A stretch of 52,438 nucleotides of DNA from Planctomycetota bacterium (GTDB lineage: Bacteria > Planctomycetota > Phycisphaerae > Sedimentisphaerales > Anaerobacaceae), in assembly GCA_022563885.1 (NCBI GenBank), contig JADFMM010000009.1:1-52438 (forward strand), written 5' to 3'. The notes under the pieces were generated by a model that was given only the letters and a program-made list of their open reading frames with translations, had not been told where the DNA came from and made no database searches. Numbering within the stretch: the first letter of the stretch is position 1; the number at the start of each line of letters is the position of its first letter. Below, piece after piece: positions 14,314-16,084 of the stretch. The position numbers and the translations under genes are program-made.

Positions 14314-15117
14314 CTAGCTTCCTTCACCTGCTACGTTTTCACTCGGAGCACCGTCCACTGCCGGCGGCGCAGCGGCCTCAACTGGAGCGGGTGTTTTCTC
14401 AGCGGGCCGCGGTCGGCCCGGCCCACCGAACCCTTCTCTCCGGGGCCGTCTTCTACGCCGCTGTACAGGCTGAATCTCTTCGCCAAACTTGCCCTTGTAG
14501 ATCCAGACTTTGATGCCGATCGCCCCGTAGGTTGTTCGAGCCGTTGTCGTTGCGTAATCGACATTCGCGTCAAGTGTGTGCAGCGGAATGGAGCCTAATT
14601 TTTGAGTCTCCTTTCGCGACATTTCCGCCCCGCCCAAACGGCCGGATGCGATGATCTTGACGCCTTTGGCGCCCACACTCATGGCATTCTCACAGTGCTG
14701 CTTCATCGTCCTTCTATAGGAAGCCCGTCTTCCGAGTTGCTCGGCGATCACGAGTGCGACCAACCTTGCGTTGAGATCGGGTTCCTTTATCTCAATCACG
14801 TTGACTGCGACCTCGCGGGAGGTCAACACTTGCAACTCTTCGCGAATCTTCTCAACCTCGGCACCACGCGGACCAATCACCACCCCGGGACGGGCACTAT
14901 GCAACGTCACGTTCACTTCGTTTCGTGTCCTGACAATTTCAATCCTGGCGACTGCCCCCTTGGGCATCCGCTCATTGTAACGCTTTTCGCAGTAGGCACG
15001 AATCTTCTGGTCCTCTACCAAGTAGATGCCGTAGTTTTCCTTGTGGGCAAACCACGTGCTTACCCAACCCAGTGTAATACCCGTTCTGAAACCAATAGGC
15101 GATGTTTTCTGACCCAT
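14314..15117 (-). CDS. rpsC: 30S ribosomal protein S3
   Basis: A 267-residue S3, part of the mRNA entry channel. The ATG at 15117 (MGQKTSPIGFRTGITLGW) is the conserved start. The KH domain shows HSARPGVVIGPRGAEVEKI, and the C-terminal S3 domain GAKGVKIIASGRLGGAEMSR and TYGAIGIKVWIYKG. From about residue 215 there is a basic then Ala/Pro-rich tail of about 50 residues, longer than the E. coli end and likely disordered. Confidence 0.97.
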   Translation of the reverse strand: MGQKTSPIGFRTGITLGWVSTWFAHKENYGIYLVEDQKIRAYCEKRYNERMPKGAVARIEIVRTRNEVNVTLHSARPGVVIGPRGAEVEKIREELQVLTSREVAVNVIEIKEPDLNARLVALVIAEQLGRRASYRRTMKQHCENAMSVGAKGVKIIASGRLGGAEMSRKETQKLGSIPLHTLDANVDYATTTARTTYGAIGIKVWIYKGKFGEEIQPVQRRRRRPRREGFGGPGRPRPAEKTPAPVEAAAPPAVDGAPSENVAGEGS

Positions 15118-15158
15118 GTGCAGTCTTCTCAAAAATGATCTAAACCCATGTTACCAGT

Positions 15159-15707
15159 CTATTCCTCTGTCAGTACGACATGTATATGACAGGCACACTT
15201 TCGAATGGGGTGGGAACGTCCCCGGTCTTTGGCGATCCAGGTCTTGGTGCCAAGCCGCCTTCCCGCATCATCCACCCTTGCCTCTGTGACGTACAGACTG
15301 TCGACCGAGGCCTGTTGCTCATCCGCATCCGCCAGTGCACACTTCAATAACTTTCCCACCATGGGTGCGGCCCTTTTTCGCGTAAATTTCAGCAAGTCCA
15401 TCGCGTCTTGCACGGTGCGCCCCACGATAAGCTGAGTCACAAGTCGAGCCTTGCTGGCAGACAATGGGGCGTATCTATAACTGGCCCGCCAGTCTTTCAA
15501 GCTGTTCTCTTCCACGCCCAGGGCTTTCGCCAGCTTGATGACATCATCGTGACTCGGTCGCGGCTTAAACAGGCCCTTTTGCCAATTCCGAATGGCTTTG
15601 GCCGCTTCCCTGTCGTCACGTCCACCCGTGGTCAAGTGACTGGCCAAGGCCTGGACATTGGTACTTCGCTGCCGGCAAATCCTATTTAACTTCTGCGTAC
15701 TTAACAT
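15159..15707 (-). CDS. rplV: 50S ribosomal protein L22 with N-terminal HTH (XRE-like) domain
   Basis: A 182-residue protein; ordinary L22 is about 110-120. The C-terminal part from about residue 72 is L22 (YAPLSASKARLVTQLIVGRT, then the end with TWIAKDRGRSHPIRKCACHI and HVVLTEE), including the tunnel-lining loop region. Residues about 12-68 read like an XRE/Cro helix-turn-helix: AIRNWQKGLFKPRPSHDD followed by VIKLAKALGVEENSLKDW, close to the pattern W-x-x-G-x-x-x-P...LA-x-x-LGV...L. The ATG at 15707 is 49 bases after the rpsS stop. No ATG lies between the HTH-like part and the L22 part, though a TTG with GGAAGAG upstream could be an internal start. The HTH assignment is from pattern alone. 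Confidence 0.93.
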   Translation of the reverse strand: MLSTQKLNRICRQRSTNVQALASHLTTGGRDDREAAKAIRNWQKGLFKPRPSHDDVIKLAKALGVEENSLKDWRASYRYAPLSASKARLVTQLIVGRTVQDAMDLLKFTRKRAAPMVGKLLKCALADADEQQASVDSLYVTEARVDDAGRRLGTKTWIAKDRGRSHPIRKCACHIHVVLTEE

Positions 15708-15756: not shown

Positions 15757-16026
15757 TCATTTGATCTTCTTACTCGAATGACCTTTAAACGTTCTGGTCG
15801 GGGAGAACTCACCCAACTTGTGTCCAACCATGTCCTCCGAGACCAGCACCTTGTGAAACATCTTGCCATTGTGTACCAAGAAAGTCAGCCCGACAAATTC
15901 AGGCACAATAGTGCATCGTCTGGCCCACGTTTTTATGGGTTCGTAACTGCCTTCATCAACGTGTTTGCTCACTTTCAAGATAAGCTTTTCATCGACGAAA
16001 GGCCCTTTTTTTAGAGATCGTCCCAT
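15757..16026 (-). CDS. rpsS: 30S ribosomal protein S19
   Basis: An 89-residue S19 in the head of the small subunit. It begins [15 protein letters not shown] and has [22 protein letters not shown] and [16 protein letters not shown]. The start at 16026 is the conserved family start; the open frame extends six codons further. It lies between rplB and rplV. Confidence 0.97.
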
Positions 16027-16084
16027 ACGTTGTTGGTCTCTCAAAGAACAGAGATGCGGTCACAACTGTCCGTGTGTACCACGA

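Follow-up and report, generated by a model that had tools for sequence, protein, structure and literature searches.

The rplV Locus and its Neighbors

The window analyzed here (the whole stretch of 52,438 nucleotides, from contig JADFMM010000009.1 of the planctomycete assembly GCA_022563885.1, order Sedimentisphaerales) contains an S10 operon of standard order: rpsJ, rplC, rplD, rplW, rplB, rpsS, rplV, rpsC, rplP, rpmC, rpsQ, rplN, rplX, and rplE. The gene that concerns us, rplV, occupies the position between rpsS and rpsC that is customary for uL22 (RplV), and its product is the one L22 match in the window's genome. The original prediction had placed the gene correctly between 15159 and 15707; it is read from the minus strand, with its ATG at 15707, its last sense codon at 15162 and its stop codon at 15159–15161, and it encodes a protein of 182 amino acids. 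The gap to rpsS, which had been proposed to be normal for an operon, is 49 nt (table 1).

Table 1. Coordinates of rplV, its flanking genes and the parts of its product within the window
Feature	Positions	Strand	Basis
rplV, the genome's sole L22 gene, encoding a 182-aa HTH-uL22 fusion	15159..15707	-	ORF and genome search
rpsS (uS19), upstream neighbor, 49-nt gap before rplV	15757..16044	-	
rpsC (uS3), downstream neighbor of rplV	14314..15132	-	
N-terminal XRE/Cro-type HTH domain (predicted), residues 1-73	15489..15707	-	Profiles of relatives and AlphaFold
Predicted helix 1, residues 4-14	15666..15698	-	AlphaFold model
Predicted helix 2, residues 18-28 (18-25 in the domain-only model)	15624..15656	-	AlphaFold model
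Predicted helix 3 (recognition-helix position), residues 32-43, with the invariant N41-W42	15579..15614	-	AlphaFold and alignment
Predicted helix 4, residues 53-63	15519..15551	-	AlphaFold model
Fusion joint W73, aligned with the aromatic residue after the start Met of extension-free L22s	15489..15491	-	Alignment
uL22 core, residues 75-180	15168..15485	-	PF00237, E=4.6e-24; Foldseek to solved L22s
Tunnel-hairpin strand, residues 146-156, with the 3-residue insertion (DDAGRRLGTKT)	15240..15272	-	Alignment, all sampled members of the order

The uL22 Core

uL22 is a universal ribosomal protein that lines the exit tunnel of nascent proteins and extends into it, and the product of the window's rplV is a member of this family. 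Its core passes the Pfam model PF00237 (Ribosomal_L22) with 85 bits against a cut-off of 28. With the NCBI equivalog model TIGR01044 it reaches 72.0 bits, just short of the cut-off of 73.65, over nearly the whole length of the model. The modeled core has the L22 fold with its extended beta-hairpin (strands 138–150 and 171–181), and Foldseek aligns it with solved L22 structures at E-values of about 1e-9. The NCBIfam model NF008917, which describes a fusion of L22 with a domain of unknown nature, was considered and rejected: the score was 39.7 bits against a cut-off of 526, and the match was to the L22 part alone. That model too combines L22 with an added domain, but its extra part follows L22, whereas that of the window's protein precedes it.

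The tunnel hairpin has a peculiarity of its own. All the sampled L22s of the order have a three-residue insertion in one of its strands, reading DDAGxRxGTKxW where the sequence elsewhere is DEGPxxKRF; the insertion is absent from the families here labeled f5 and f110 and from other planctomycetes. It lies near the counterpart of residues 82–84 of Escherichia coli L22, the site of known macrolide-resistance changes in that protein.

Fold of the N-Terminal Extension

The sequence that precedes the core had been predicted to be an XRE-like helix-turn-helix (HTH) of about 60 residues. The extension is indeed present, with a length of 73 residues. A profile search of the window's own copy remains below the Pfam cut-offs (HTH_19, E=0.015, 15.6 bits against 30.2; HTH_3, E=0.05, 14.1 bits against 23). 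The corresponding domain of L058, which belongs to the same family as the window's genome, exceeds them (HTH_19, 35.4 against 30.2; HTH_3, 33.9 against 23; HTH_31, 31.5 against 27 bits), and HTH_31, HTH_26, HTH_19, and HTH_3 are each matched by 24 to 36 of 48 members at E<=1. After the recognition helix there is a WxxGxxxP signature, in which W42 is invariant, G45 occurs in 71 and P49 in 76 of 78 sequences. A PHROGs search with the domain returned mainly generic phage repressors.

AlphaFold predicts four helices (table 1) with a pLDDT of about 88, both for the full protein and for the domain alone. In a Foldseek search with the domain model, XRE repressors and XRE-like domains ranked highest, with modest E-values (the best being 0.08). 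VIA-align superimposed the model (pLDDT 88.5) on C.Csp231I (Z 10.1, with an rmsd of 2.0 across 68 residues) and, with Z of about 9–10, on CylR2, SinR, DdrO, and P22 c2, with 60–68 residues aligned across the best solved structures; the remaining top matches were XRE proteins or XRE-like domains, including those of the enzymes HppE, HEPD, and MPnS. Since matches between helical bundles may lack specificity when Z is less than about 13, the HTH assignment is based on the profile hits, the motif and the fold taken jointly. Relative to CapH and C.Csp231I, the turn between helices 2 and 3 and the loop between helices 3 and 4 are enlarged by additional residues. One relative, G335 (L142:1499-2089, minus strand), has an HTH domain that is longer by about 15 residues, the additional ones lying in the region of the recognition helix and the next loop.

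By the sequences of its relatives and its predicted structure, then, the N-terminal domain is a member of the XRE-type HTH fold group, an assignment that makes no claim of DNA binding. The structure prediction and the XRE structural matches thus bear out the fusion that was originally suggested.

Translation and Selection

The whole protein can be aligned start to start, and is conserved from the same first codon, throughout the window's order. In a set of 78 same-length, nonredundant sequences the median dN/dS was 0.24 for the N-terminal domain and 0.08 for the core, values that are rough because the synonymous sites are partly saturated; mean identities were 51% and 73%, respectively. For the closest pair, the window and L032, the dN/dS of the domain was about 0.23. 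As judged from these comparisons, the N-terminal domain is under purifying selection; at the same time, its 51% identity amounts to a relaxed conservation that would be compatible with a weak or redundant role.

It could be argued that the extension is an artifact of gene-start assignment, and that L22 is initiated internally near its core. An in-frame ATG, GTG, or TTG is found at codons 61–82 in 76 of 92 sequences, and two of the window's internal TTGs (codons 21, 25, 70, and 82) fall in this interval, at codons 70 and 82. These potential starts, however, occupy no conserved position, and the relatives L056 and L119 have no further in-frame ATG, GTG, or TTG anywhere in codons 2–82. Moreover, extension-free L22s usually have a Met 3–4 residues before the core, whereas the fused L22s have no conserved Met there. 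Because conservation begins at codon 1 across the order, dN/dS is well below 1 and two relatives are devoid of internal starts, the extension is probably translated from the upstream ATG, as had been anticipated. We therefore reject the start-site artifact, which we regard as scarcely credible.

Distribution and Evolutionary History

In our sample of the class, as counted from two result tables taken jointly, the extension is present in all 44 genomes of the order with an L22 match; two more genomes of the order had no L22 match at all and are outside this count. It is also found in all 15 genomes of family f5 and in both of those of family f110, and in none of the 173 others of the class. Most of the other L22s of the class start 3–4 residues before the core or bear short unrelated tails. 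In nearly all the genomes examined there is one L22 per genome. The phylum sample yielded no further L22 with the extension beyond the order, f5, and f110, and a scan of contig records gave matches that all came from Planctomycetota, its subgroups or uncultured bacteria.

A profile built from the order's domains alone recovered those of f110 (E 2e-17 to 6e-17) and f5 (E 7e-16 to 1e-11) and matched no other L22 in the set; the extensions of the three groups are thus homologous. A tree built from 11 further proteins of the S10 operon requires at least three changes to account for the carriers of the extension; in it a single carrier clade is rejected (p about 2e-7), and the extension-free families f6, f7, f8, f99, and f101 are nearer to f5 and f110 than the order is. 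The L22-core tree also places f5 and f110 apart from the order, with a single clade not rejected (p 0.196). A transfer of the whole L22 gene between the order and f5/f110 was considered and discarded, given that the operon tree rejects a carrier clade and that the L22-core tree, at the p-value just cited, separates the groups. To judge from these trees, possible histories are a deep gain followed by repeated loss or a transfer limited to the domain. No free-standing close donor of the domain was found at E<=0.01 in the rest of the window's genome; in other genomes the domain profile gave weak matches, located at other genes.

Among the S10-operon neighbors of loci L199-L238 and the window, uL29 tends to be shorter in carriers (60–74 aa vs. 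66–88), and three carriers have a long uL24 (162–177 aa).

Proposed Position on the Ribosome

The extension-free L22s typically have M-A-[W/Y/F]-x ahead of the core. In the fused proteins this aromatic residue is kept (W73 in the window's protein; in f5 and f110 it is F), and the start Met has given way to the domain, with no linker. A domain joined in this manner would be expected to hold a fixed place on the ribosome and, as nearly all the genomes have a single L22, it should be present on each ribosome, barring its removal by processing. In the ribosome of Cutibacterium acnes, uL22 anchors four helices of the 23S rRNA with its N-terminal part, namely H2, H24, H46, and H19, the last at its tip (PMC10085706). 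The domain, directly ahead of the native uL22 N-terminus, would consequently sit among these helices near the tunnel exit, a position that we infer from the ribosomes of other bacteria and that agrees with the tunnel-exit side named in the original prediction. A precedent for additions here comes from the mitoribosomes of Neurospora crassa, where N-terminal helical extensions of uL22m are located at the tunnel (PMC7560712). A ribosome structure from the present lineage was not found in the searchable sources.

The domain is basic, with a median pI of 9.6 and a mean net charge of +3.7. Its conserved charged and polar residues are K/R40, the invariant N41, K/R44, and K/R48, along with R27 in 61 of the 78 sequences. 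The conserved charges are located at the end of helix 3 and in the following loop rather than in the N-terminal half of that helix; residues 31–34, 36, and 37, with which the recognition helix begins, are variable.

In the carriers, H2, H19, H24, and H46 of the 23S rRNA are neither shortened nor otherwise distinct, and no rRNA change matching the extension was seen there. Additional segments were seen in other parts of this rRNA, at loci L245 and L262. The 23S rRNA of G127, a member of the order, has about 290 extra nucleotides near E. coli position 1861–1876, and that of G404 about 450 near position 1171–1186; these segments are possibly intervening sequences or introns. In the window's own assembly (contigs C233 and C336), one contig has a complete 23S gene and the other has separate 23S fragments, so that there are two rRNA loci or else the bin contains mixed material.

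Possible Functions of the HTH Domain

We propose that the HTH domain, as a permanent extension of the large subunit near the tunnel exit, binds rRNA or acts as a scaffold and is not a DNA regulator, a reading to which we give about an even chance. An old nucleic-acid-binding fold would here clamp rRNA by means of the basic strip formed by K/R40, N41, K/R44, K/R48, and often R27. It is the basicity of the domain and the conservation of these residues that suggest rRNA binding. The variable start of helix 3, combined with the conserved basic residues, can be read as binding of the backbone type to rRNA rather than specific reading of DNA, a distinction in which our confidence is likewise middling. 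Against this proposal, a basic patch would be suited to DNA as well.

Several other roles merit consideration. The domain could be a docking platform, a protein–protein surface at the tunnel exit that recruits or gates a chaperone, a processing enzyme, or a membrane or nucleoid component. Exit-site ribosomal proteins are known docking sites (PMC5071890), and the N-terminal part of uL22 is near the exit (PMC10085706). In addition, the model has variable surfaces, and the match to the XRE-like domains of HppE, HEPD, and MPnS indicates that the fold occurs outside regulators. The analysis revealed no partner, however, and the conserved surface residues are mostly basic and a better fit to nucleic acid; we consider such docking unlikely, though a role to be kept in view. 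Alternatively, L22, either free or bound to the ribosome, might bind DNA through its HTH, for example in an autoregulation of the S10 operon or a coupling of ribosome supply to transcription. Sequence-specific repressors have this fold, the nearest matches are the DNA-binding controllers C.Csp231I, CylR2, SinR, and P22 c2, and the domain is basic. But the N-terminal half of the recognition helix is variable, and the domain directly adjoins a core ribosomal protein, with no linker between them. Furthermore, a scan for inverted repeats upstream of rpsJ (exact arms >= 7, a limited test) found no operator-like repeat common to carriers. Such a regulator appears to us quite improbable. The broader idea that a repressor fold near each ribosome's tunnel exit actively binds DNA or a regulatory partner, and in this way links translation to transcription, the nucleoid or nascent-chain handling, is doubtful; if true, a regulatory module would have been built into a universal ribosomal protein.

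The extension could also make up for lost or altered rRNA at the uL22 N-terminus, as has been argued for organelle ribosomes. The N. crassa mitoribosomes, with their shortened H24, offer a precedent (PMC7560712), and in f5 and parts of the order certain variable segments of the 23S rRNA are short. Short segments are found in extension-free genomes too, however, and because carriers show no change of length in H2, H19, H24, and H46, the domain does not replace lost rRNA there; we view compensation as very improbable. As between the stabilizing and regulatory roles initially envisaged, the comparative evidence leans toward stabilization or scaffolding, because there is no linker, L22 is single-copy, the start of the recognition helix is variable, and no operator-like palindrome is shared.

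If the HTH is fixed on the order's only L22, the large subunit would differ from that of model bacteria at the very place where nascent chains and factors meet. The fusion would be a case, open to test, in which the ribosome has taken up a transcription-factor fold, and its presence and absence within one class allows a natural comparison.

Comparison with Known Systems

The protein of the window shares with other bacterial uL22s (RplV; PF00237, TIGR01044) the core fold, the place between rpsS and rpsC and the single copy; it differs by the addition of its 73-residue N-terminal HTH domain and, like the rest of its order, of the three-residue insertion in the tunnel hairpin. With the XRE/Cro repressors and controllers (HTH_3, HTH_19; C.Csp231I, CylR2, SinR, P22 c2) it has in common the arrangement of helices, the WxxGxxxP signature and, in its relatives, the profile scores. 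In contrast to these, its domain is fused to a ribosomal protein, has a longer 2–3 turn and 3–4 loop, and is variable in the N-terminal half of its recognition helix.

A literature search that extended to few of the subscription journals found no description of an HTH-uL22 fusion, which is consistent with the initial view that this is not a described feature of L22. Lineage-specific additions at the termini of uL22 are known from the ribosomes of C. acnes, chloroplasts and fungal mitochondria; in the accessible parts of those reports they are described as tails or helical elements, not as a folded XRE HTH domain. HTH proteins that work on ribosomes include Mbf1/EDF1 of eukaryotes and archaea (PMC6301793); these ribosome-associated factors are separate proteins, outside uL22, and are linked to uS3 in the vicinity of the site where mRNA enters.
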